Positions 6,356 to 62,646 of a stretch of DNA of 64,000 nucleotides are shown here, piece by piece. A model generated the notes under the pieces. That model was not told the DNA's origin. It made no database searches and saw only the letters and a list, made by a program, of their open reading frames with translations. How positions within the stretch are numbered: the first letter of the stretch is position 1; every line of letters begins with the position of its first letter. A program made the translations under genes and the position numbers. Source of the DNA: an uncultured Roseovarius sp. (lineage in GTDB: Bacteria; Pseudomonadota; Alphaproteobacteria; Rhodobacterales; Rhodobacteraceae); assembly GCF_947489715.1 (NCBI RefSeq), contig NZ_CANLER010000005.1, forward strand, positions 62,001-126,000, read 5' to 3'.

Positions 6356-7132
6356 TCAAGGTCGCGCGGCATACATCGCCACCGCAGCCGCGTTCGATAC
6401 ATTCAACGATCCGAAACCACCTGCATAATCGATCCGAACCAACTGATCACAGGTCTCGCGTGTTTTCTGCCTCAACCCCGGCCCTTCTGCCCCAAGCACC
6501 AGCGCGATGGGCCGATTGCGCCGCCCCTCGACTGCCTGCTCTATGGTCATTTCGGCCTCACCATCAAGGCCAAGCACGACATAGCCCATCGACTGAAGTT
6601 CGGTGATCCCATCCGCAAGGTTGCGAATACGTAGATAAGGTTGACGCTCCAGCGCACCGCTGGCGGTCTTCGCTAACGCGCCAGTCTCGGGTGCCGCATG
6701 GTGGCGCGGGGCGATCACGGCACAAGCTCCGAAAACTTCGGCCGATCGCAAGATCGCGCCGACATTATGTGGATCGGTAACACGGTCCAACAGGATCACA
6801 CGAGGCGGGCTTTCCCCATCTCCCAGGCAGCGGCTTGCCAATGTGCCCCAATCCAACGGCTTCACCTCAAGCGCGGCCCCCTGATGCACCGACTGCGGAT
6901 CAATGGGCGCCGGAAACCGACGCGGGTCGGCAGGTTCGGGCGTCATACCAGAGGTTTCTATCGCATCCGCAAGCTTGTCATGCGCATTTTTCGTAACGAC
7001 AAGTCGTAACTTTTCACGGGCTTCATTTTGCAACGCATCGCGAACCGCATGCAAGCCAAACAGCCAGAGCGTTTCCGCTGCAACCGCCCGCTTTGCCTGC
7101 TCTTTTTCGACCACCCAACGGGGTTTTTTCAT
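6356..7132 (-). CDS. rlmB: 23S rRNA 2'-O-methyltransferase RlmB-type (SpoU/TrmH family)
   Basis: This SPOUT-fold enzyme probably methylates the ribose of a guanosine in 23S rRNA (G2251 in E. coli). The N-terminal substrate-binding domain contains LFGLHAVRDAL. The catalytic domain shows the three SpoU motifs: LLDRVTDPHNVGAILRSAE, ALVLGAEGPGLR and YAGGFGSLNVSNAAAVAMY, the last holding the knot residues. The ATG at 7132 gives MKKPRWVVEKEQAKRA, which resembles relatives. A TTG at 7192 with AGGA upstream would add 20 residues. The exact rRNA target is inferred from family. A tRNA-Tyr gene lies upstream on the other strand. Confidence 0.9.
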   Translation of the reverse strand: MKKPRWVVEKEQAKRAVAAETLWLFGLHAVRDALQNEAREKLRLVVTKNAHDKLADAIETSGMTPEPADPRRFPAPIDPQSVHQGAALEVKPLDWGTLASRCLGDGESPPRVILLDRVTDPHNVGAILRSAEVFGACAVIAPRHHAAPETGALAKTASGALERQPYLRIRNLADGITELQSMGYVVLGLDGEAEMTIEQAVEGRRNRPIALVLGAEGPGLRQKTRETCDQLVRIDYAGGFGSLNVSNAAAVAMYAARP

Positions 7133-7266
7133 GGCTTCAATCGCCCCTTTTCCTGAGCGCGCGACAATGCGCTGCGTCTTGGCGTTGTGCAAGGTATTTT
7201 CCTGTTGACGGTGCCGGGCCGCGCTAGTAATCAGCGCTGCACGTCAAGCGGTTTGACCGCTGGCAG

Positions 7267-7351
7267 TGGGCGACAGGCCGCAAGGTGTGGCAGGGGACTG
7301 TAACTCCCTCGCGGAGACGCACGCCTGGTTCGATTCCAGGGTCGCCCACCA
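7267..7351 (+). tRNA. tRNA-Tyr (anticodon GTA)
   Basis: An 85-base type II tRNA with encoded CCA. The acceptor arms TGGGCGA (7267-7273) and TCGCCCA (7342-7348) pair fully. The anticodon loop CTGTAAC gives anticodon GTA, and a long variable arm follows, as expected for bacterial tRNA-Tyr. The T arm is CCTGG-TTCGATT-CCAGG. The following 260 bases up to the LysR gene hold no gene I can support. Confidence 0.96.
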
Positions 7352-7612
7352 TTTTCTTCTTTCTCGAGTACTTAGAACGCAAAACCCGCCGGTGCGACGC
7401 ACAGGTGAGACAAATACATGCGTTTTCTGGCTGAACGGTCGCTACAAGTCACTTGGTTAAGAGATCACCGGGTTTCATGTCTGAAGGGGTCGCGAGATGG
7501 GAAAGTCATCGATCAGACCGTGCCAGAAGGTGACGAAATTGTGCTACTCACTAACATCGTCATCGCACTCGCTCCTTTCATGCACCCCGAGGTTCCAGAT
7601 GGTAGGGGTTCC

Positions 7613-8527
7613 TCATTCCTCGCTCTTCTGTGAGGTCTGCAAAACCCAACGTTCCAATACCGTAGCCTCTTGGGTCAATTTCACGCCCGACCGTTTCACA
7701 AGAAAATACCCACGGCCGGTCTTGAGAGAAACTTTCAAAGGTTGCACCAATTCGCCATTACCCAATTGCCGGTCGAGTAGCCGGTCCCACCCAAGGGCTA
7801 TTCCCTGTCCGGCACATGCGGCCTGAATGAGAAGTGGCAAATTGTTAAACCCGAGTGATCGCATGTCCTCTGAGAATGGGATCTTCTTCTTTGTCAGCCA
7901 TTGATGCCAGTCGACCCAATCCCAGCGGTCGCCCCGGAGATCCAACAAGGTATGATCCAGAAAATCCCTTGGGGCCAAGATTGGTGGGTTGTTCTGCAAA
8001 TATTCAGGGGCACAAACCGGGAATATCTCCTCTGAGACAAGCAAGGTCGCATCAAATCCCGGCCAGTTTCCATCTCCGTACAACAAAGCCATGTCGACAC
8101 CGCTTTTCAGACAATCCCCTTCGCTATCCGACGCGATGATGTTTACGGAAATCTCAGGAAACTGCGCCTGGAATTCGTGGAACCGAGGCATCAGCCAAAG
8201 ATGGGCCATCGAAAGATCCGCCCCCAGGGTCAGATCATGGGGCGTGTTTTCAACCCGTATTGAACCCGCTGAATTCGCAAGCAAGTCCAAAGCGACAGAC
8301 ACCGAATGCTGGAAACGCTGGCCTGCTTCGGTCAGTTCAATCCGCCTGTGAGTGCGGTCAAACAGTTTCACGCCAAGATACTGTTCCAAAATCCTAATTT
8401 GCCGACTTACTGCGGCTTGCGTGATAAATAACTCCTCTGATGCACGGGTAAAACTGCGTAGCCTCGCAGAGGCCTCGAACGCAGCAAGTGTTGTCATCGG
8501 CGGCAACTGACTTCGAACTTTATCCAT
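7613..8527 (-). CDS. LysR-family transcriptional regulator
   Basis: A 304-residue LysR regulator. The N-terminal winged helix shows LAAFEASARLRSFTRASEE and ITQAAVSRQIRILEQYLG, resembling the GcvA subgroup, followed by the periplasmic-binding-like effector domain (LGADLSMAHLWLMPRFHEF). I chose the ATG at 8527 because CAGGA sits six bases upstream; an 18-residue extension to 8581 has no such support. The gene is divergent from the sodium/solute symporter gene across 181 bases, the usual layout for a LysR regulator controlling its neighbour. The effector is probably the transported solute. Confidence 0.92.
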   Translation of the reverse strand: MDKVRSQLPPMTTLAAFEASARLRSFTRASEELFITQAAVSRQIRILEQYLGVKLFDRTHRRIELTEAGQRFQHSVSVALDLLANSAGSIRVENTPHDLTLGADLSMAHLWLMPRFHEFQAQFPEISVNIIASDSEGDCLKSGVDMALLYGDGNWPGFDATLLVSEEIFPVCAPEYLQNNPPILAPRDFLDHTLLDLRGDRWDWVDWHQWLTKKKIPFSEDMRSLGFNNLPLLIQAACAGQGIALGWDRLLDRQLGNGELVQPLKVSLKTGRGYFLVKRSGVKLTQEATVLERWVLQTSQKSEE

Positions 8528-8708: not shown

Positions 8709-10391
8709 ATGTCTGATCCGGTATTTTTTCAGTTCTCTACAGTTACCGTCATAATCCTCTTGGCACTTTTCTATGGTGGCACCTTTTGGATGTCGACTTT
8801 CGTCAATGAAAAAGAAGAGAGCGTTGACGGCTTCATGGTTTCAAGCGGCGAGGTCGGCTTTGGCATCTCAGCCGCAAGCATGACCGCGACGTGGATTTGG
8901 GCGGCGTCTTTTTATGGCGCGGCAATCTCGGGCTACAACTACGGCTTGTCCGGGCCAATGCACTATGGGTTTTGGGGGGCGTTAATGATCCTCTTCATAT
9001 ATCCGTTTGGCCTGCGGTTCAGGAAACTTGCACCAAACGCCCATACCCTGGCCGAGATCATGCATGCACGGCATGGATCCGGCAGCCAGCTGATCCTGGC
9101 AATTTCCAACCTTTTTGGCAGCGTGATCAGCCTGATGGTGAATTTCACTGCGGCAGGTGCACTTGTATCTGTGCTATCACCGCTATCCTTCCAGGCGGGG
9201 GTGCTAATCGCCGGTATTGGCGTGCTATCCTATACGCTTTGGTCCGGTTTCCGAGCATCCATCCTAACCGATTTTGCCCAAGTGGTTGCAATGATGTCCA
9301 TTGCTGTCGTCATCATCCCATGGGTCTATTTCAGCGCGGGCGGTAGTGAGGCGTTGAGTAACGGTTTTGCCATCATTACAGAACAGCAGGCCGATTTCTT
9401 CTCGACCACCGCAATTCTGGAACAGGGCGCGCCCTTCTTCGTGGCGGTACTGGCCTACGCCATCGGCAATCAAACAATAGCTCAGCGTCTATTCGCTGTG
9501 CGCGAGGACCTAATCAAACCCACCTTTATCACGGCAACACTAGGTTATGGGTCGATTGTGATTGGTCTGGGTATGCTAGGTCTGATGGCATTGCTGCTTG
9601 GCGTGGCACCACATGAAGGTGACTTGAATAACCTTATCCCACAGATGGCGTCAGCCTACCTGCCACCGTTCATGATCGCGCTTTTCTTCATCCTGGTGAT
9701 CGGTTCGCTATCTTCTACGGCAGATTCTGATTTATCCGCTCTGTCGGCGATCATGATGACCGATATCTATGGCCGTAATCTGGCCAAGGGCAATCCAAAC
9801 CCACGCAAGATGCTGCTGTTGGGTCGCCTGACAATGATCGTGGCCACCGTGGCCGGGCTGATCCTCGCGAGTTTCTCGCTCGATATCCTGGTGATGCTGG
9901 TATTCGTTGGTGCTCTGTGGGGGGCTATCGTGTTTCCTGTGATCGCCAGTTGTTACTGGAACAGAGTTACCAATACGGCATTCATCTGGGCCGTGCTTGG
10001 CGGGCTTGTCCTGTTCACAATCGTGCGTTTCGAAGTCCTACCGCTCAGTGGAATTTTTGGTGGGTTTTTCGAACTTGTCGCCGCAGTAGGTGGTGGTGTG
10101 GTTCTGGCCTTAATGGCCTTCGGCTTCTTCGGACGCATCGTTGGACTATTGGTGGGTGTCATTGGATTTGTGGCATGTGCTTTCTACTTCAGTGGGTTTC
10201 TTCGGGACTACACTGTCCTGTTAGGATCGCTGACCGCCTATGGCGCCAGCACGGTTATCTGTGTAGCGCTGAGCTTGATGGGCAAGGAAGAGTTTGATTT
10301 CGACCTGATCAACGAGCGCGTCACCAGCTTTGACGATGACGCCGCGATGGCGGCTGTTCGTAAAGAAGATGAGCGCCTGAAAAACGCCTGA
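8709..10391 (+). CDS. Sodium:solute symporter (SSS family)
   Basis: A 560-residue inner-membrane protein with about 13 predicted helices. The SSS pattern is seen in TWIWAASFYGAAISGYNYGLSGP, the conserved sodium-site region IGSLSSTADSDLSALSAIMMTDIYGRN, and LPPFMIALFFILVIG. It resembles urea/choline-type members more than sugar or proline carriers, but the solute cannot be read from the sequence. The start has a GGGGAG site. A divergent LysR gene sits upstream, and a 39-codon gene follows 21 bases downstream in the same operon. Confidence 0.92.
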   Translation: MSDPVFFQFSTVTVIILLALFYGGTFWMSTFVNEKEESVDGFMVSSGEVGFGISAASMTATWIWAASFYGAAISGYNYGLSGPMHYGFWGALMILFIYPFGLRFRKLAPNAHTLAEIMHARHGSGSQLILAISNLFGSVISLMVNFTAAGALVSVLSPLSFQAGVLIAGIGVLSYTLWSGFRASILTDFAQVVAMMSIAVVIIPWVYFSAGGSEALSNGFAIITEQQADFFSTTAILEQGAPFFVAVLAYAIGNQTIAQRLFAVREDLIKPTFITATLGYGSIVIGLGMLGLMALLLGVAPHEGDLNNLIPQMASAYLPPFMIALFFILVIGSLSSTADSDLSALSAIMMTDIYGRNLAKGNPNPRKMLLLGRLTMIVATVAGLILASFSLDILVMLVFVGALWGAIVFPVIASCYWNRVTNTAFIWAVLGGLVLFTIVRFEVLPLSGIFGGFFELVAAVGGGVVLALMAFGFFGRIVGLLVGVIGFVACAFYFSGFLRDYTVLLGSLTAYGASTVICVALSLMGKEEFDFDLINERVTSFDDDAAMAAVRKEDERLKNA

Positions 10392-10412
10392 TAAAATGAA
10401 AGGAATAAACCA

Positions 10413-10532
10413 ATGCTGACACTTTACATCCTGATATGGCCACTGATTTCCGCGGTCGTTCTAGCCCTGATTGTCACTACGTTTGTGCGCGAATTGCGTC
10501 AGGCCAAAAAAGACGGAAAGAAGGTCGTGTAA
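10413..10532 (+). CDS. Putative transporter small subunit (39 aa, one membrane helix)
   Basis: A 39-codon gene that is easily missed. It has a good ribosome site (AAAGGAATAAACC) and starts 21 bases after the symporter stop. The peptide begins MLTLYILIWPLISAVVLA and continues as a single hydrophobic helix, ending in a basic tail (RQAKKDGKKVV). Small single-helix proteins of this sort are known beside SSS-family transporters and are annotated as transporter small subunits. A strong terminator closes the operon about 60 bases downstream. Its effect on transport is inferred. Confidence 0.8.
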   Translation: MLTLYILIWPLISAVVLALIVTTFVRELRQAKKDGKKVV

Positions 10533-10591
10533 CACATCGGCCGAGGCCTCCCACCTTGGCCAAGCGCTGAAGGCCCGGACCCTAAGCGCAA

Positions 10592-54674: not shown

Positions 54675-54803
54675 GTCCGATTTTCACCGATTTGGTCACT
54701 TCACGACATATCACGACTCACTCTCTTCCGGCAATACCGTCACAGAACGGACGCATGTCCATATCGACACACCAATGACCAAACCATGTGAATGGAGATG
54801 AAA

Positions 54804-55736
54804 ATGACACATAGAAAATTGCCCCATGAAACCAACCAGCTTTTTCTGACAGATGCCGGGTTCGAGACATGGCTGTTATTTATCAAAGGGTTTGATATGC
54901 CTTGTTTTGCGGCATACCCACTGTCGCGAGTTGCCGATGGCCGCGCTGCAATCGAAGAGTATTTCAAGCCGATCTTTGACCTCGCTCGCGAGAACAATAC
55001 TGGCCTTGTCCTCGATACAAACACATGGCGCGCCAATCCTGACTGGGGACAGGAACTGGGGCACGACCTAGATCACCTGCGCGCTGTGAACGAAGAAGCT
55101 GTCACATCGGCCATGAACATGCGGCGTGACTTTGGACAGGGGCTGAACGTACTCATCAACGGTGTTATTGGCCCTCGTGGCGACGGTTATGATCCCAAGA
55201 CAATCATGAGCGTCGAAGAAGCGCAGGACTACCATGGTTTTCAGGTCGCTACTTTCGCAAAAAGCGGTGTGGACATGGTTTCCGCGCTCACAATCACCAA
55301 CATCCCCGAGGCGATCGGGGTTGCAAACGCCGCGGCAAAAGCCGGAATGCCCTGTGTCATCAGTTTCACACTGGAAACCGACGGGTGCTTGCCAACCGGG
55401 GAGAGGCTCGGTGACGCAATTGCGCAGGTTGATGCGCGGGCCAAGACAAAGCCTGCCTATTTCATGATCAACTGCGCGCACCCCGATCATTTCGTCGACA
55501 TAATCCCGAAAGACGCCGATTGGATCAAACGTATCGGGGGTGTGCGTGCAAACGCGTCGCGCATGTCTCATGCAGAGCTAGATTGTTGTGAAACCCTCGA
55601 TGACGGCGATCCGGTTGAACTGGGCGAGCAATACGCAGCCCTACGCCAATTGCTACCGAACCTGAAAGTATTCGGCGGATGCTGCGGTACGGACCACAGA
55701 CATCTATCGCAAATCTGCAACTCTTTGGCCGCTTAA
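54804..55736 (+). CDS. Homocysteine S-methyltransferase family protein
   Basis: A 310-residue zinc-dependent methyltransferase. The zinc cysteines are Cys224 in MINCAHPDHF and Cys293-Cys294 in FGGCCGTDHRH. Other parts are LTDAGFETWL, LVLDTNTWRANPDWG and VSALTITNIPEAIGV. The methyl donor could be S-methylmethionine, betaine or DMSP. The regulator and transporter nearby make a methylated osmolyte attractive, but the sequence does not decide. I chose the third in-frame ATG (54804) because GGAG lies six bases before it. The flavin monooxygenase gene follows after 24 bases. Confidence 0.9.
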   Translation: MTHRKLPHETNQLFLTDAGFETWLLFIKGFDMPCFAAYPLSRVADGRAAIEEYFKPIFDLARENNTGLVLDTNTWRANPDWGQELGHDLDHLRAVNEEAVTSAMNMRRDFGQGLNVLINGVIGPRGDGYDPKTIMSVEEAQDYHGFQVATFAKSGVDMVSALTITNIPEAIGVANAAAKAGMPCVISFTLETDGCLPTGERLGDAIAQVDARAKTKPAYFMINCAHPDHFVDIIPKDADWIKRIGGVRANASRMSHAELDCCETLDDGDPVELGEQYAALRQLLPNLKVFGGCCGTDHRHLSQICNSLAA

Positions 55737-55760
55737 GCGCGCTATTTCAAGGAGCCTACG

Positions 55761-56981
55761 ATGAAACCGAATCCATCAAAAAACGCCATCGTAATTGGTG
55801 CGGGGCTGTCCGGCCTTGCTACAGCCAAGGAACTGCGAGCAAATGGCATTCCCGTGGTTATTCTGGAAGCCGCAGATCAGATCGCGGCTCCTTGGCGCAC
55901 ACGCCACCCGCGGCTACGTTTAAACATCCACCGCCGGTTTGCCCGGCTTCCGGGGCAACAGGTGATCCAGCACAAGGATACCTACTTGCCTCGGGATTCC
56001 GTGGTTGAATATCTGACCGACTATGCCAACCATTCGGGCGTTCCAATCCACTTTGAGACGCGAGTAAATGCCGTGATGCGGCGGGATTCCGGGTGGTATA
56101 TCCAGACGAACAATGGAGATTTTCAGTGTTCTGACTTGATCGTTGCAACCGGGCGCGAATGCGTGAAATCCATGCCGATCTGGCCCGGCATGGATGTGTT
56201 CGGGGGCGTGATCATCCACTCTGCCGATTTTGCTGATCCCCGCGAATATGATGGGAAAAAGGTTCTGGTGATCGGCGCCGGCAATTCCGGCTCCGATATC
56301 TTGAACCACCTGTCGCGCAGCAAACCCGCGCAAGTCTGGGTGTCGGTGCGACACGGGCCCGCGATCCTGCCAACACGCATTCTGGGCTTCCCGCTTCACC
56401 GTCTGGCAAACCTGTTCGCACGGATGCCAAAATGGTCCCTGGATCCGATCTTTGCGGTCATGCAACGTTTGTTCTTTGGCGATTTACGCCGTTATGGATT
56501 GCGCCAACATACTATGGGCGGGGGCACGCGAATGCTCAAGGATGGCGTGACATTCGCACTGGATGACGGATTTATTGCAGCCTTGAAATCGGGTCGTTTT
56601 GAGGCGGTTGAGGAAACCGTCGGTTTCACTTCCAACGCAGCCGAGCTGTCCAACGGGCGCGAAATCTGCCCGGATGTGGTGATTTGTGCTACTGGCTACA
56701 GCCCCGGTCTGGATGATCTATTCGATCATCTCGGAGCCTTGGACAGCCAAGGCTACCCCCTGCACCCTATGGGTCAGGAAGATACCAGGAACCCGGGCCT
56801 CTGGTTCACTGGGTATGGTGTGGTCTTCCAAGGCTTCTTTCACGCGGCAGGCATAAGCGCCAGGCGAATAGCGACAAGCATAACGGCTCGGGTTTGTTCT
56901 GCTGAGGACGCGCATGTCCGGCGCCGCGCAGTCAACACCAACAACCGACGAACGCTTTCTTTGAACGGGATAGACCAATGA
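55761..56981 (+). CDS. Flavin-containing monooxygenase-type FAD/NADPH oxidoreductase
   Basis: A 406-residue class B flavoprotein monooxygenase. Two Rossmann motifs are seen: GAGLSG (residues 13-18) for FAD and GAGNSG (172-177) for NADPH. Between them lies the FMO fingerprint F147-x-G149-x3-His153-x3-F157 (FGGVIIHSADF). The ATG-type motif VICATGYSPGLDD is near the end. Such enzymes oxygenate soft nucleophiles such as sulfides and amines, including trimethylamine, or act as Baeyer-Villiger enzymes. It is in one operon with the homocysteine methyltransferase. Confidence 0.9.
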   Translation: MKPNPSKNAIVIGAGLSGLATAKELRANGIPVVILEAADQIAAPWRTRHPRLRLNIHRRFARLPGQQVIQHKDTYLPRDSVVEYLTDYANHSGVPIHFETRVNAVMRRDSGWYIQTNNGDFQCSDLIVATGRECVKSMPIWPGMDVFGGVIIHSADFADPREYDGKKVLVIGAGNSGSDILNHLSRSKPAQVWVSVRHGPAILPTRILGFPLHRLANLFARMPKWSLDPIFAVMQRLFFGDLRRYGLRQHTMGGGTRMLKDGVTFALDDGFIAALKSGRFEAVEETVGFTSNAAELSNGREICPDVVICATGYSPGLDDLFDHLGALDSQGYPLHPMGQEDTRNPGLWFTGYGVVFQGFFHAAGISARRIATSITARVCSAEDAHVRRRAVNTNNRRTLSLNGIDQ

Positions 56982-57247: not shown

Positions 57248-57351
57248 TAGAGCGTTTCCAGTTTTCGTTGAAACAAGCATCATCGCTTTTCGCGTTCGAG
57301 CGTAGCGAGAGGCAGCGAACAAGCGATTCAATGTGAACTGGAAACGCTTTA
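57248..57351. mobile_element. MITE-like element with IS630-type TA target duplication
   Basis: A 100-base element (57250-57349) is bounded by terminal inverted repeats GAGCGTTTCCAGTT and AACTGGAAACGCTT, 13 of 14 bases matched, and flanked by TA on both sides (57248-57249 and 57350-57351). Its inside is partly palindromic (GTTCG near 57294 and CGAAC near 57315). It has no coding capacity. The TA duplication points to mobilisation by an IS630/Tc1-type transposase encoded elsewhere. Confidence 0.75.
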
Positions 57352-57582: not shown

Positions 57583-57720
57583 GGGCGAGATGTCGCTTAG
57601 GCACTTACGATTCGTTGAAGTGTTTCTGCGCTGTCAACCTTGATTTGCGAAGAAATACAACATCCCATGGGTTTTTACCAACGACCAATTTCGCGTCTTA
57701 CGGGTAACAGGGGGTGGATA

Positions 57721-59286
57721 ATGTCAATTTTCAAAGGTGCTTCCTTCAACACGGTATTCATCGTCGCCATGGTCTTATGCTTGGCCATTGGCGTCTGGGG
57801 CGTGATCAGCCCAAACAGTATGACGGGCTCGGCCCAAGCATTTACGAGCTACCTATTGAACGGAGCAGGCTGGATGTGGCTGGCAATGTGCTCGGGCTTT
57901 CTACTGCTTGGCGGCTATATGGCGTTCGGACCTTATGGAAACATCCGGCTGGGAAAGGACGACGAAGAACCGGAGTTCGATACGGCCTCCTGGATCGCGA
58001 TGTTGTTTGCTGGCGGGATGGGTTCGGGGCTTTTGGTCTGGGGCGCAGCGGAACCAATGTACCACTTCGTCTCTCCCCCAGGAATGGAAGGCGAGACGGC
58101 GCAAGCTGCTCGAGAAGCACTGGTCATCACGAACCTTCATTGGGGTTTGCACGCCTGGTCGATCTATGGTTGCTGCGCGCTGGTCATTGCCTATTTCACG
58201 TTCCGGCGAAATGAGCCGTCTATGATTTCGACGCCGATCAAGCATGTCTTCAAGGGAAAAACCGGCGATAACGTGGGCAAGGCTGCTGATATCCTCGGCG
58301 TCATCTCGGTCGTATTCGGTCTTGCAGGGTCACTGGCCATGGGCGCGCTTGCGGTGCGATCTGGCATGTTCTACGCGTTCGACACGCCGCAGAACAACAA
58401 CATGTCGATGATTATTTTGGCGGCCCTTTTCGTCTGCTATATGTTGTCTGCAACGACCGGTGTCGACAAGGGCATCAAGATCTTGTCGAACCTCAACATG
58501 GTGCTGACAGTGGCGATCATGCTTCTGGTGATCTTTGCCGGACCCACACAATTCATCATGGAAACTTTCGTGGATTCCATCGGTCAGTATTTCAGCGCGA
58601 TCATCACGAAGTCATTCACGCTTTATCCCTTCGAAGGCCTGACAGGATGGACGTCGGGCTGGACATTGACATACCTGATCTGGTGGCTGGCTTGGGGGCC
58701 TTTCATCGGCATTTTCGTCGCGCGAATTTCGCGCGGACGCACAATCCGGGAATTCATCTTTGGCGTCGTTCTGGTGCCCACGATGTTCTCGATGCTCTGG
58801 TTTGCAGCCTTTGGCGGTGCTGGCTTCTACATCGAGATGTTCGGCGGTGGCGGCTTGAAAGAGATCATTTTCGAAGATGTCTTTGCCGCGCTCTTCGCTT
58901 TCCTGGGGTACTTTCCGGGTGGCGCACTTCTTGCAGGCTTGGCTGCGGCTCTTCTCTTCATCTTCCTGGTAACGTCGGCGGACTCAGGCACGTTCGTGCT
59001 TTCGATGATGACAACCGACGGCAATCTCGACCCGCCAGTGGTGCAAAAGATGATTTGGGGCGTCCTGATCGCTGTCCTGACTTTCTCGACCCTGGTGACC
59101 GAGTCGGTGACCGTGGCCAAGGCGATGGCAATCACAGGCGCAATTCCATTTGCGATAATCGTCCTGCTGCAGATTGTGGGCTTCATGCGCGAAATCCGAA
59201 AAGAAATCGCAGAGCCAGAGGAAATCGAAGCCCAGGGTGTAACCGAGGGTAGAAACCCCGAAATCGCCACTGAAGGCAGCGCGTAG
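57721..59286 (+). CDS. BCCT-family transporter (betaine/choline/carnitine type)
   Basis: A 521-residue secondary carrier with twelve predicted helices. The BCCT core is seen in MLFAGGMGSGLLVWGAAEPMYH, the tryptophan-rich helix WWLAWGPFIGIFVARISRGRTIREF and LVTSADSGTFVLSMMT. It imports a quaternary ammonium or sulfonium compound with Na+ or H+. The frame opens at 57640, but the ATG at 57721 follows GGGGGTGG and gives the normal cytoplasmic N-terminus. The tail is short, without the osmosensing extension of BetP. A binding-protein gene follows after 27 bases. Confidence 0.93.
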   Translation: MSIFKGASFNTVFIVAMVLCLAIGVWGVISPNSMTGSAQAFTSYLLNGAGWMWLAMCSGFLLLGGYMAFGPYGNIRLGKDDEEPEFDTASWIAMLFAGGMGSGLLVWGAAEPMYHFVSPPGMEGETAQAAREALVITNLHWGLHAWSIYGCCALVIAYFTFRRNEPSMISTPIKHVFKGKTGDNVGKAADILGVISVVFGLAGSLAMGALAVRSGMFYAFDTPQNNNMSMIILAALFVCYMLSATTGVDKGIKILSNLNMVLTVAIMLLVIFAGPTQFIMETFVDSIGQYFSAIITKSFTLYPFEGLTGWTSGWTLTYLIWWLAWGPFIGIFVARISRGRTIREFIFGVVLVPTMFSMLWFAAFGGAGFYIEMFGGGGLKEIIFEDVFAALFAFLGYFPGGALLAGLAAALLFIFLVTSADSGTFVLSMMTTDGNLDPPVVQKMIWGVLIAVLTFSTLVTESVTVAKAMAITGAIPFAIIVLLQIVGFMREIRKEIAEPEEIEAQGVTEGRNPEIATEGSA

Positions 59287-59313
59287 CACCAACCGGAGGG
59301 AAAGGAGATTCTT

Positions 59314-61167
59314 ATGTTCAGATCGACATTCACTTTAATTCTCGCCGGCGTGTTCATGCTGACAGGGTGCTCGGAAGAAGAAAGCTCGATACGTATTGGA
59401 TCAAAGAGTTTTGGCGAAAGCCGGATCCTGGCGCACATGATGGCTGCAATCGCGACCGAACAAGGTTTGCCAGTGGAAGGCGTTGTTGAATATGCCAACA
59501 CGCCCGCCATTCTCGAGGCGTTGAAACGTGGAGATATCGACGCCTATCCCGAATACAATGGAACGGGTCTGGTCATGCTTGGGCAAAGCCCGATGGCCGA
59601 TGGCGATGCGGCGACCGCGCGTGTGAAGGAAATCTTCGAACCACTTGGGATTTCGTGGCGCGAACGCGTTGGCTTTGCCAATAATTACGGGCTGGCAATG
59701 CTGCCCGACCGCGCCGATGAACTTGGTCTGACGACAATGACAGACCTGGTTGCCCGCTCTTCCGAGGTGACGTTGGGTATAGAAGATGATTTCGATGAAC
59801 GCCCACTGGACGGCCTCAGCCCGATGATTCAGCGTTACGGTTTCGAATTCGCCAGCGTGGAACAAGTGCCGTTGGCGGATCGGGGCCAACTCTATGATTT
59901 GCTGCTGGACGAGAAAGTGGACGTCATCGAAGTTTACACGACCGATGGTCAGATCGCAGATTACGGCCTTGTTCTACTCGAAGATAACCTGACATTCTTC
60001 CCGGTTTATGAACTTGCACCGATCGTTCGGATGTCGTCGCTGTCTGAATTTCCTGAATTGGGTGTTGCGCTGGATGCATTGGGCGGCAGGTTTTCAGATG
60101 CTGAGATGCAAGCGCTCAATCGGAAGGTCGACCTCGAAGGCCGCTCTCCTGATGCTGTCGCGCGTGATGCGCTTGCGCGTCTCGAACTGATCTCTTCCGG
60201 CGCGGTGGAAGCCGAAGATCCTCTTCTGATTGCCACGTCGCCCATACTGACAGATAGCGAACATGCCGGTACGTCTCTCAGGGCGGTTCGGCGCGCATTT
60301 GTCGGGCGCGAAGTTGCAGTCGAACCAAGCATCAACCCGTTGCAAGAGGTTGGAAACGGCAACGCACGGCTTGCCATGGTTGGCGCAGAAAGCTTTTTTG
60401 ATATTTCAGGCCCTGCACCGCGCCGTTTGAACCAATTTGAAAGCGTTGCCGCGGTAGGGGCCAATGTGTTGCATCTGATTGCAAAAACAGAGACCGAGGC
60501 CGCTCAATCTCTTCAGGATGCATCCGCACTTGTCGTTGGTACGGAAGGCTCGTCGACATATCAACTCGGATTAATACTCAAGGATGCGCTTGGCTTAAGC
60601 GCCGACCTGATCGCGATCGAAGCTTCTAGCGCCACGGATCTGATTGCGGCCATTGACGATGGTAGTAAAGTTGCGCTGGTTGCAGCCCCGCTTGGCATCG
60701 ACGCGATCGAAGATGCGTTTGATGGTGCCGGGTTGAGGCTCTTGCCAATCAATGGCTGGACGGATGGCGGAAACCTGGTGAAATATCCTTTCCTGCGCCA
60801 GACACGTATCCCCGGCGGCACCTATGGGCTTCAATTCACCGCAATTGAGACACTGTCAAGCCAGGTGGTGCTTGCCGGCCCTGCCCCGGTGGCGGTCGCA
60901 TCAACCATTGGCGAACAGGGGCCTGGCGCCACGGCAGCACCCAGCCTGAAGCCAGTACCGTCCAGCACCGTAAAGGCGCTGGCTGGTGGGATTACCAATG
61001 GCGAGATCGTCGACCCGGTGTTGCCAATTGCAGTCGCCTTTGCACCTGAGCTTCCGGAACCACCCGCGGCGATGAACCCATCGGCTGATGTGTCGGTCCT
61101 GAATATTCTGATCGTTATGATGTTCGTGTGGATATTCTGGTTGTATACACGCCGCGAAGTTCGCTGA
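59314..61167 (+). CDS. Two-domain substrate-binding lipoprotein (OpuAC + TAXI-like) with C-terminal membrane helix
   Basis: A 617-residue protein. A lipobox (FMLTGCSEE, Cys19) starts it. Residues about 26-295 form an OpuAC/OsmF-type glycine-betaine-binding domain: IRIGSKSFGESRILAHMMAA, EALKRGDIDAYPEYNGTGL. Residues about 305-545 look like a TAXI-type TRAP binding domain: VVGTEGSSTYQLGLILKDAL, FLRQTRIPGGTYGL. A proline/alanine linker leads to a terminal helix (LNILIVMMFVWIFWLYTRRE). No ABC or TRAP permease is nearby; the only transporter is the BCCT gene 27 bases upstream. The OpuAC call is firm, the TAXI call moderate, the coupling to BCCT inferred. Confidence 0.82.
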   Translation: MFRSTFTLILAGVFMLTGCSEEESSIRIGSKSFGESRILAHMMAAIATEQGLPVEGVVEYANTPAILEALKRGDIDAYPEYNGTGLVMLGQSPMADGDAATARVKEIFEPLGISWRERVGFANNYGLAMLPDRADELGLTTMTDLVARSSEVTLGIEDDFDERPLDGLSPMIQRYGFEFASVEQVPLADRGQLYDLLLDEKVDVIEVYTTDGQIADYGLVLLEDNLTFFPVYELAPIVRMSSLSEFPELGVALDALGGRFSDAEMQALNRKVDLEGRSPDAVARDALARLELISSGAVEAEDPLLIATSPILTDSEHAGTSLRAVRRAFVGREVAVEPSINPLQEVGNGNARLAMVGAESFFDISGPAPRRLNQFESVAAVGANVLHLIAKTETEAAQSLQDASALVVGTEGSSTYQLGLILKDALGLSADLIAIEASSATDLIAAIDDGSKVALVAAPLGIDAIEDAFDGAGLRLLPINGWTDGGNLVKYPFLRQTRIPGGTYGLQFTAIETLSSQVVLAGPAPVAVASTIGEQGPGATAAPSLKPVPSSTVKALAGGITNGEIVDPVLPIAVAFAPELPEPPAAMNPSADVSVLNILIVMMFVWIFWLYTRREVR

Positions 61168-61188
61168 ACCACGAAAGGCAGGCTGAAA

Positions 61189-61644
61189 ATGACTGATAAC
61201 ATACTTGTTCCAATCGATTTGGCGGACCAGGAAACGGGTTTGAAAGTGATCAAAGAAGGCGTGATGCAGGCCAAAGCCAGGAATGGCGACATGACAGTGA
61301 TGACAGTCGTGCCGGATATTCTTTCGGGTCTCGATTTTCGCTATGCCATTCGCGGCGAAATGGGCGGTTCGGAAGATTATGATCTCAAGGGGATTGTGCA
61401 AGAGGCCCTGGAACGGTTGAATGAAATCGTGGCGGAACACACCCCAAGCGGCATGAGGGTGAAAACCATCGCGCGTCATGGAACAGCCTACGAAGAAATC
61501 CTGAAAGTGGCTGACAAAATCGGCGCCACTCAGATTGTGATGGGCGCTCACAGACCGTCACTGGCGGATTACCTTATCGGACCAACAACGGCGCGCGTGG
61601 TGCGCCATGCCGAGTGTTCGGTCAATGTCCTCAGAACCGTTTGA
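61189..61644 (+). CDS. Universal stress protein (UspA family)
   Basis: A 151-residue UspA-fold protein, starting ILVPIDLADQETG and ending with the nucleotide-binding loop IVMGAHRPSLADYLIGPTTARVVRHAECSVNVLR. The usual G-x2-G-x9-G-(S/T) motif is partly changed, with Arg instead of the second Gly, so ATP binding is uncertain. It starts 21 bases after the binding-protein gene and is the third gene of the BCCT operon. Usp proteins sit beside several TRAP transporters (TeaD with TeaABC), where they tune transport. Confidence 0.92.
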   Translation: MTDNILVPIDLADQETGLKVIKEGVMQAKARNGDMTVMTVVPDILSGLDFRYAIRGEMGGSEDYDLKGIVQEALERLNEIVAEHTPSGMRVKTIARHGTAYEEILKVADKIGATQIVMGAHRPSLADYLIGPTTARVVRHAECSVNVLRTV

Positions 61645-62016
61645 AAATCGCAGGGCACTCGTTTTCGTGAACGATTATTCTTCGCCTGGGATCTGGTGAA
61701 AGCGCTTTCCTGAGACGGCAGATGATCTGACAATTGTGATGAAAACCGTCTGTATTGCCGCGCGTAATTGCAGTTTGAATTTTTTTCTTCGCGGACATGG
61801 CGAAGGGTGGCTATGAGTGGTCGCGCAGCAAAACCAAGTGATCTGCACAAGGTCGCCTTCGGGCTGGCAGGAAAAGACCAGCAATGCTCAGCGTTTTTCC
61901 GCCCTCCACCGCTCAATCAGTAGGTGAGCCGCTATAGATGTGATATACTCCCCGTCATTAGCAGGGCCATTTGGCCAAATTTTAGATCGAATATTATTTT
62001 GAATACGGAGGCTCTT
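61645..62016 (+). other. Non-coding stretch after the BCCT operon
   Basis: About 370 bases. The open frames here are shadows without ribosome sites. The right end is A/T-rich (61930-62000) and probably holds the promoter of the hypothetical pair. No terminator hairpin was recognised. Confidence 0.45.
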
Positions 62017-62349
62017 ATGCCAATTTCCCCTTCGCCGGAACCCTTTCGGCTGTCTCTCCTCGAAAGTCCTGACGGATCCGAACTCCTAGTTTATGCCAAT
62101 GCTACTGGCTGCGGCATCTACCTATTGCAACGCATTGTCGTCTGCACCGAATCCGGCGGTTCATCTATCTGTCGCTTCTTCCGTCCGGGCGGCTTCTTCG
62201 ACTTCGCTGTCGGCGGTGCACAAATCGAACCAAACATAACGATCCTGAAGGCCCGAGTACCTGCACCCGGCGGTAACTACACCGCCTATGCAGATGGTCA
62301 CTTCGTGCGCATCGACCGGCGCGCGACAACCGCGGTCGAAAGCTTCTGA
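62017..62349 (+). CDS. Hypothetical protein (110 aa)
   Basis: A 110-residue protein of no family I recognise, starting at ATG 62017 with a strong GGAGG site seven bases before. It looks like a small globular beta-rich protein (FRLSLLESPDGSELLVYANA, FFRPGGFFDFAVGGAQ, GGNYTAYADGHFVRID) with three cysteines. It lacks a signal peptide and membrane helices. The next gene starts 12 bases downstream. Confidence 0.65.
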   Translation: MPISPSPEPFRLSLLESPDGSELLVYANATGCGIYLLQRIVVCTESGGSSICRFFRPGGFFDFAVGGAQIEPNITILKARVPAPGGNYTAYADGHFVRIDRRATTAVESF

Positions 62350-62361
62350 GGAGGAAAGATC

Positions 62362-62646
62362 ATGACAGACAGTGTGTTCAAACTAGCCGTCGCCGGAGCG
62401 ATGGAAATAGACGAGGTCATTGCGGCAGCAGATGCTGTCCCGGGTCAAACCTGCGAAACGGCGGAGATCCGAGGTGTGGAATTGCAGCGCATTGACCGGG
62501 CCAAGGAAACCACGGTGGTGTTCTTTACCAGTGGTGAGGAAAGCGCGCGTGCTTTCCAGAAGGTTGTCGAAAAATCCGGGCGAAAGGCACGCGTCGACAA
62601 AGCCGACCCAAAGGAGCTCTTGTCCAGCGAACCGGTTCAGAATTAA
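62362..62646 (+). CDS. Hypothetical protein (94 aa)
   Basis: A 94-residue protein of no family I recognise, with an excellent GAGGAGGAAAG site. It has an alpha/beta pattern: VFKLAVAGAMEIDEVIAAAD, then ELQRIDRAKETTVVFFTSGE, then a helix ARAFQKVVEKSGRKAR. It forms an operon with the 110-residue protein and the two may act together. A ten-pair hairpin follows the stop. Confidence 0.65.
   Translation: MTDSVFKLAVAGAMEIDEVIAAADAVPGQTCETAEIRGVELQRIDRAKETTVVFFTSGEESARAFQKVVEKSGRKARVDKADPKELLSSEPVQN

Follow-up and report, generated by a model that had tools for sequence, protein, structure and literature searches.

Until TAXI-GltS was described in 2025, TRAP and TTT transporters were, according to the available portion of that report, the sole secondary carriers known to work with soluble binding proteins (PMC12344293). 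In Bordetella pertussis, TAXI-GltS corresponds to BP0403-BP0402 (PMC12344293, same portion). Carriers of the BCCT family have been described as single-subunit transporters, and those of Roseovarius nubinhibens and Sulfitobacter have been reported to import dimethylsulfoniopropionate and betaine (PMC10030565, available text). Here we examine a 64,000-nucleotide stretch of DNA (the window) from the 5.03-Mb genome of an uncultured Roseovarius species, which carries a three-gene operon encoding a BCCT carrier, a binding protein that joins an OpuAC domain to a TAXI-like domain, and a universal stress protein (Usp). The first two genes are paired at every one of 13 distinct loci, and we consider it reasonably probable that the BCCT and its tethered receptor form a two-component uptake system for a betaine-type solute. 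Among the listed titles and opening lines of abstracts from the open-licence literature, no described case of a BCCT with a binding protein was found, and the main text of the TAXI-GltS paper, as far as available, contains no occurrence of the terms BCCT, betaine or OpuAC (PMC12344293). Thus, the statement of the initial annotation that no example had been described holds for BCCT carriers, but TAXI-GltS provides a precedent for a carrier other than TRAP or TTT that is joined to a binding protein.

The three genes lie on the plus strand in the order BCCT, binding protein, Usp (Table 1). They are separated by gaps of 27 and 21 bases, so that genes, strand and spacing are all as the initial annotation had given them, and Pfam and NCBIfam profiles bear out its BCCT, OpuAC and Usp assignments. 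Full-length matches to the binding protein were found in 2 of 385 genomes of the class, 8 of 394 of the family, 6 of 390 of the order and 2 of 398 of the phylum. These samples overlap, each includes the window's own genome, and together they yield 11 genomes. The searches used the binding protein or its alignment and scored only a few candidates per genome, and the latter makes the genome counts lower bounds. Among 72,556 plasmid records, 570 match the protein, and three hold at least 80% of it in one place: one from Paracoccus aminovorans and two from Martelella that have the same annotated proteins. The remaining plasmid matches, among those listed, cover the OpuAC half or little more. Counting duplicates once (L034 = L100; L035 = L036 = L053) and leaving out Martelella NC20, whose annotated proteins are the same as those of NC18, we examined 13 distinct loci from 11 genomes and two plasmid lineages in two orders. 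Two of these loci are also present in named records, from Roseovarius sp. MMSF_3359 (G841, the genus of the window) and from an uncultured Rhodobacteraceae bacterium. Neighbouring genes at several loci were identified from reading-frame lists, with profile scans covering part of them.

At all 13 loci with the full architecture, a BCCT gene lies directly upstream of the binding-protein gene on the same strand, with gaps that range from −4 to +27 bases (14 bases in P. aminovorans, as read from the junction) and with overlapping genes at four loci. The pairing is kept down to approximately 32% identity between binding proteins and 59% between BCCTs, and it spans Rhodobacterales, Hyphomicrobiales (Martelella) and one more family of the same class (G335). 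A stable genetic pairing, as expected of a binding-protein-dependent secondary transporter, is therefore seen throughout the sample. The initial annotation had called for a search for this OpuAC, TAXI and helix architecture beside BCCT genes in other genomes, and had cautioned that homologues might instead lie mostly beside ABC or TRAP permeases. The frame lists for the 13 loci contain no ABC or TRAP permease gene adjoining the pair, and no TRAP membrane subunit was seen beside the binding-protein gene. The nearest candidates are a DctM-type TRAP gene approximately 3 kb from the binding protein in L057 and an ABC set approximately 4 kb away in L055.

It might be argued that the two genes are unrelated neighbours, brought together by chance or by recent common descent, given that most loci come from one family, that the samples overlap and that several copies are on plasmids. 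This is extremely improbable, however, when the pairing persists at approximately 32% protein identity and across orders, with differing third genes and with flanking genes that otherwise vary between loci, as far as these were read. The arrangement is beyond chance, as all 13 distinct loci share one gene order and one architecture. In a Martelella genome paper, both genes appear in separate table rows without comment in the part available (PMC9720073). Annotation records name the second gene “glycine betaine ABC transporter substrate-binding protein.”

Control loci indicate that the link belongs to the full architecture. Nine OpuAC-only loci that the same family search had yielded, which come from eight genomes and represent 9 of many OpuAC-only matches, showed no BCCT match in the 11-15 kb fetched for each; the idea that OpuAC-only relatives share the BCCT link was rejected on this basis. 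Likewise, 13 other BCCT genes, 11 from other genomes and two from the window's own, have no binding-protein match within approximately 1.5 kb. The nine other linked BCCTs are 59-97% identical to that of the window, those that come next in 198 family genomes reach 37-40% identity to it, and the linked clade is at most approximately 45% identical to other BCCTs among the matches listed. Members of this clade occur in 3 of 198 family genomes, in 1 of 190 class genomes (the window's own) and in 3 of 72,556 plasmid records, in each case beside the binding protein. Among 48 plasmid records with a relative of the L101 BCCT at E 1e-80, the three with at least 60% identity are the same three that carry the binding protein. 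In a single tree built from 10 linked BCCTs and 12 others, which has long branches, the linked group needs a single change, and at 26 BCCT positions 12 linked proteins carry an invariant residue that 12 others lack.

The carrier itself is a complete BCCT. The PF02028 match spans profile positions 1-485 of 485, the protein scores over the cut-off of the NCBIfam bcct model TIGR00842, and an alternative in-frame TTG start is present at 57640. Residues W141, W146, Y149, W321, W322, W325, T418 and S419 are identical across the 10 linked BCCTs aligned. In an alignment with BetP (4ain), W141, W146, Y149 and W322 are equivalent to W189, W194, Y197 and W374, which we take to be the aromatic cage of BetP for trimethylammonium groups. 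Together with W325, these residues give all 10 carriers the aromatic cage expected of the family. T418 and S419, also conserved in 10 of 10, presumably correspond to the sodium site of BetP, and because of this match sodium coupling of the window's BCCT is likely.

The OpuAC half of the binding protein carries a corresponding signature. PF04069 matches residues 25-288. A full-length AlphaFold2 model from 10 sequences (mean predicted local distance difference test, pLDDT, 79.6; predicted template-modelling score, pTM, 0.50) finds its best Foldseek matches in the Protein Data Bank (PDB) among OpuAC-type proteins, including OpuBC and iAChSnFR (target-length template-modelling score, TMt, approximately 0.9; probability 1.00). 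This half aligns with Archaeoglobus ProX, whose ligand residues we take to be K13, Y63, T66, Y111, R149, Y190 and Y214, a numbering that agrees with the alignment, and all seven positions could be mapped. At these equivalent positions, K31, Y81, T84, R163 and Y232 are identical in all 13 binding proteins, position 125 is Y or F in all of them, and 12 of the 13 also have Y or F at position 208, where Martelella has L. In profile, fold and cage residues, then, the window protein has the features of an OpuAC binding protein. To judge from these conserved residues, both proteins independently appear to indicate a betaine-like class of ligand, and this is the best functional argument that they cooperate.

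Table 1. The operon and the parts of its binding protein, in window coordinates.
Feature	Coordinates	Strand	Evidence
BCCT-family secondary transporter, 521 aa from ATG 57721	57721..59286	+	Pfam BCCT 2e-160
Doubly anchored binding protein, 617 aa: lipoprotein signal, OpuAC, TAXI-like, linker, C-terminal membrane helix	59314..61167	+	
Lipoprotein signal peptide ending LTGC, Cys19	59314..59370	+	Lipobox-like pattern
OpuAC (betaine/choline type) domain, residues 22-293	59377..60192	+	Pfam 1.1e-44, Foldseek
TAXI-like domain lacking the canonical TAXI end motifs, residues 300-523	60211..60882	+	
Linker, residues 524-590, mostly low model confidence	60883..61083	+	
C-terminal membrane helix, residues 593-611, basic tail TRREVR	61090..61146	+	Kyte-Doolittle mean 2.30
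UspF-like universal stress protein	61189..61644	+	Pfam Usp 1.9e-22

The second half of the protein has the fold of a TAXI domain and departs from it in sequence. By profile, the TAXI-like stretch spans approximately residues 339-521. The TAXI-like family NMT1_3 (PF16868) matches residues 370-521 at 9.8e-10, with 38.9 bits against a cut-off of 27, whereas the NCBIfam model TRAP_TAXI (TIGR02122) gives 1.1e-10 and 40.9 bits, below its cut-off of 84.35. When the C-terminal half was modelled alone (AlphaFold2, 11 sequences; mean pLDDT 79.2, pTM 0.73), its seven best PDB matches by Foldseek (TMt 0.53-0.63) were entries titled as TAXI or VcGluP or presumed TAXI relatives, among which we count 1us4, 9ibp and 4ddd. 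Comparison by hhalign with the four TAXI proteins of the window's own genome gives 94% and E 1.1e-7, extending only over columns 45 to 217 of 318. These structural matches rule out that the C-terminal half lacks a binding-protein fold, which the initial annotation had named as a weak point of its proposal. The predicted fusion of OpuAC and TAXI-like folds is thus upheld by profiles, AlphaFold2 and Foldseek.

It is less certain that both domains bind a ligand. The GTGG..G.Y start and the PLHPGA end, which are found in most of the four TAXI proteins of the same genome, are both missing from the window protein. In the divergent homologue L101, Pfam detects OpuAC alone (E 0.001), and the second half is recognised by its alignment to that of the window (28%, E 3e-16). 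Because of the missing motifs, the sub-cut-off TAXI score and this OpuAC-only Pfam result, we read the TAXI half as a relic that may serve for docking; it is probably not an ordinary second receptor. The description of the protein as a tandem binding protein therefore stands as far as the two folds are concerned, but one domain may bind the ligand and the other serve in coupling.

The TAXI-like domain, linker and C-terminal helix are present in all 13 homologues, as is a lipobox-like pattern. In L056 the first match to this pattern (ending at residue 7) is probably wrong, and LSAC ending at residue 16 fits the alignment. The hydrophobic segment has a Kyte-Doolittle mean of 2.09-2.52 over the 13 homologues, and the linker of approximately 65 residues carries the conserved motifs GxQGPGA ... 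ALAPxLPEPPAAxNP. The lipid anchor and the membrane helix of the initial annotation are both found in the sequence, and they suggest that the protein is attached to the inner membrane at both ends with its domains in the periplasm.

BCCTs are LeuT-fold carriers, not elevators, and are trimeric in the known members. We propose that the BCCT, as the sole membrane path encoded by the operon, would be driven by an ion gradient, probably of sodium. Lipid and helix would keep the binding protein on the periplasmic side of the inner membrane, where its OpuAC domain would trap a quaternary ammonium compound or similar solute in the aromatic cage and pass it to the carrier. The likeliest role of the degenerate TAXI-like domain and the linker would be that of a docking module or lever bearing on the BCCT, and together with the helix they would keep the receptor on it. 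A comparable arrangement has been modelled for TAXI-GltS, in which, according to the available text, two protomers are contacted, one by the binding domain and the other by a different domain (PMC12344293). The binding-protein-assisted BCCT of the initial annotation thus fits the 13/13 pairing and the fold of the binding protein; the coupling itself is what we infer from them. In its most specific form, the proposal is that of a first LeuT-fold carrier dependent on a binding protein, with the BCCT obligately fed by the doubly anchored OpuAC-TAXI receptor and with the TAXI relic as docking lever. We regard this form as a serious candidate that falls somewhat short of an even chance.

One simpler possibility is that the anchored protein merely raises or buffers the local concentration of solute near the BCCT, with no specific docking. 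Its double anchoring near a carrier encoded in the same operon and its intact OpuAC pocket would fit this role. However, the TAXI-like domain and linker, retained in 13 of 13 homologues, would be superfluous for plain buffering, and the gene overlap at 4 of 13 loci suggests coupled synthesis. Therefore, we consider passive scavenging quite improbable.

The third gene offers a further point of comparison. TeaABC-TeaD is a TRAP uptake system for compatible solutes that includes a Usp, and the nearest PDB entries of the window's Usp are 4r2l and 4r2m (UspF). A Usp gene lies directly 3′ of the binding protein at 10 of 13 loci. At L059, a gene for an MscS-type mechanosensitive channel (9189-10553) takes its place, starting one base past the stop codon of the binding protein, which links the system to osmotic stress. 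Neither gene is directly downstream in L101 or in Martelella, where a mechanosensitive channel gene is found approximately 0.7 kb beyond on the opposite strand. The Usp is thus ruled out as an essential part of the unit, since it does not adjoin the pair at 3 of 13 loci. We propose for it an accessory role in stress regulation, like that of the Usp in some TRAP operons, with MscS or nothing in its place in some lineages. Elsewhere in the same genome (L130, 638-1072, minus strand), a Usp gene resembling that of the operon extends into the 3′ end of a gene for a TAXI-TRAP permease, which supports the comparison with TRAP-linked Usp proteins.

These stress genes, next in line at 11 of 13 loci, are also among the observations that would be explained by the main rival to solute delivery. 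According to this alternative, the protein binds external betaine without handing it over, and either switches the BCCT or signals inward through its helix, perhaps substituting for the osmosensing tail that BetP possesses. The C-terminal helix would fit such a sensor or gate, as it is present in all 13 homologues and seems unnecessary for delivery. Conversely, only 5-8 residues follow the helix in 12 of 13 homologues (36 in L059), with no recognisable signalling domain among them, and the cages of the two proteins agree in ligand type. We judge the sensor or gate unlikely, although it carries more than token weight.

Several findings weigh against delivery of solute to the BCCT, and two come from the window's own genome. 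First, one of the other OpuAC proteins, L126 (L149 1833-9070; C1 ~569884-570711), is encoded in a cluster with a hybrid histidine kinase, a response regulator and a kinase whose sensor domain is TorS, and no ABC gene was seen in the 9.5 kb around it. This neighbourhood is possibly a sensor of betaine or trimethylamine N-oxide. It illustrates that OpuAC proteins may also serve in sensing, which favours the sensor alternative. Second, a two-domain ABC permease (L148 4983-6734, minus strand; C8) has no binding-protein or ATPase gene in view within approximately 5 kb. As a separate observation, this permease gene is flanked by a molybdopterin oxidoreductase gene on one side and by what may be a fragment of an oxidoreductase on the other.

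The lone permease also counts in favour of another alternative, in which the partner of the binding protein is an ABC or TRAP permease encoded elsewhere and its place beside the BCCT reflects co-regulation only. OpuAC and TAXI domains usually do serve such permeases, and of the eight OpuAC genes in this genome, four others (L123, L124, L125 and L128) are accompanied, within 1.5 kb, by a readable ABC ATPase gene. However, no ABC or TRAP permease gene adjoins the pair at the 13 loci, as noted above, and the four TAXI-TRAP permeases that score over the cut-off in this genome each have a TAXI protein gene of their own alongside. The other seven OpuAC proteins are not similar to that of the window at E 1e-5. 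With an osmoprotectant ABC permease from Neorhizobium as query, the matches in this genome are only 22-32% identical; on this non-exhaustive, single-query sample of its ABC permeases, no convincing alternative partner is evident. Thus, service to a remote permease is very improbable.

The remaining difficulties concern the carrier and the distribution of the system. The BCCTs examined outside the clade lack this partner, and the BCCT fold therefore does not need one. Support for the BCCT clade is weak (71/64), no fusion of BCCT and binding-protein genes was seen, and the full-length model leaves the placement of domains unsure (pTM 0.50; pLDDT 58-80 over five models). In P. aminovorans, the BCCT frame (L120 ~6400-7960, plasmid IV) is broken in the deposited sequence and is not annotated, while the binding-protein frame is open; this may be due to decay or to a sequencing error. 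Distribution is patchy: among the 12 genomes listed for the window's genus, nine give no match at the cut-off, and of the three that carry the system one (G1014, L101) has a divergent form. Transfer between lineages is likely, given this spread and the three plasmid records. Finally, the published secondary carriers that depend on binding proteins are thought to be elevators, according to the available text (PMC12344293).

The surroundings of the operon add some observations that are separate from the question of its function. Promoter and terminator scans gave a signal no higher than in shuffled sequence. A 25-base inverted repeat at 57248-57351, upstream of the BCCT gene, has arms that are 84% complementary with 54 bases between them, and may be a small mobile or regulatory element. 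Further upstream on the same strand (54792-56981) are genes for proteins resembling homocysteine S-methyltransferase and FAD monooxygenase, as judged from Pfam and NCBIfam; this pair was not seen beside the operon in locus L034. On the 3′ side, neither Pfam nor NCBIfam gives a match at E 1 for two small reading frames (61924-62646).

If BCCTs indeed receive their solute from a binding protein, this would suggest a new way to join such a protein to an ion-driven carrier in some marine or salt-tolerant bacteria. It would also offer a possible high-affinity uptake route for betaine-type compounds, which serve Roseobacter-related and other salt-tolerant bacteria as osmolytes and nutrients. Because BCCTs have the LeuT fold and the known binding-protein-dependent cases appear to be elevators, the operon would test whether an elevator is required; if the proposal is true, that mechanism is not a requirement for secondary transport of this kind. 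BCCTs are well suited to this test, as their structure and mechanism are well studied. The authors of the TAXI-GltS report themselves suggest, in the text available, that such transport may depend on some feature of the elevator mechanism, and they state that further classes would test that (PMC12344293).

Compared with described systems, the window's carrier is a full BCCT like BetP, BetT and DddT, but it is paired with a binding protein, unlike these single-subunit transporters (PMC10030565, available text). Its receptor has the same type of OpuAC domain and the same cage residues as OpuBC, ProX and OsmF of the OpuB/OpuC/OsmF-type ABC importers, but no ATPase or ABC permease gene was seen adjoining the pair at the 13 loci. 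As in TRAP systems of the TeaABC-TeaD type, the operon would mediate ion-driven uptake of a compatible solute with the aid of a binding protein and carries a Usp gene, but a BCCT is found in place of a TRAP membrane subunit.

The closest parallel is TAXI-GltS. Both systems pair a TAXI-containing lipoprotein that has extra domains with a secondary carrier from outside the TRAP and TTT groups, and in both the coupling is a deduction, which for TAXI-GltS was drawn from gene context, fusions and modelling, as given in the available text (PMC12344293). The binding-protein gene overlaps the carrier gene there, as it does at four of the 13 loci here. In TAXI-GltS the carrier is GltS (ESS family, a presumed elevator) and the TAXI domain binds glutamate (PMC12344293, same text). 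In contrast, the carrier here is a BCCT, the intact pocket is in the OpuAC domain, the TAXI domain is degenerate, and the receptor has a C-terminal membrane helix. The operon would thus represent a binding-protein-dependent secondary transporter with another carrier fold and with a receptor architecture that we have not found described.

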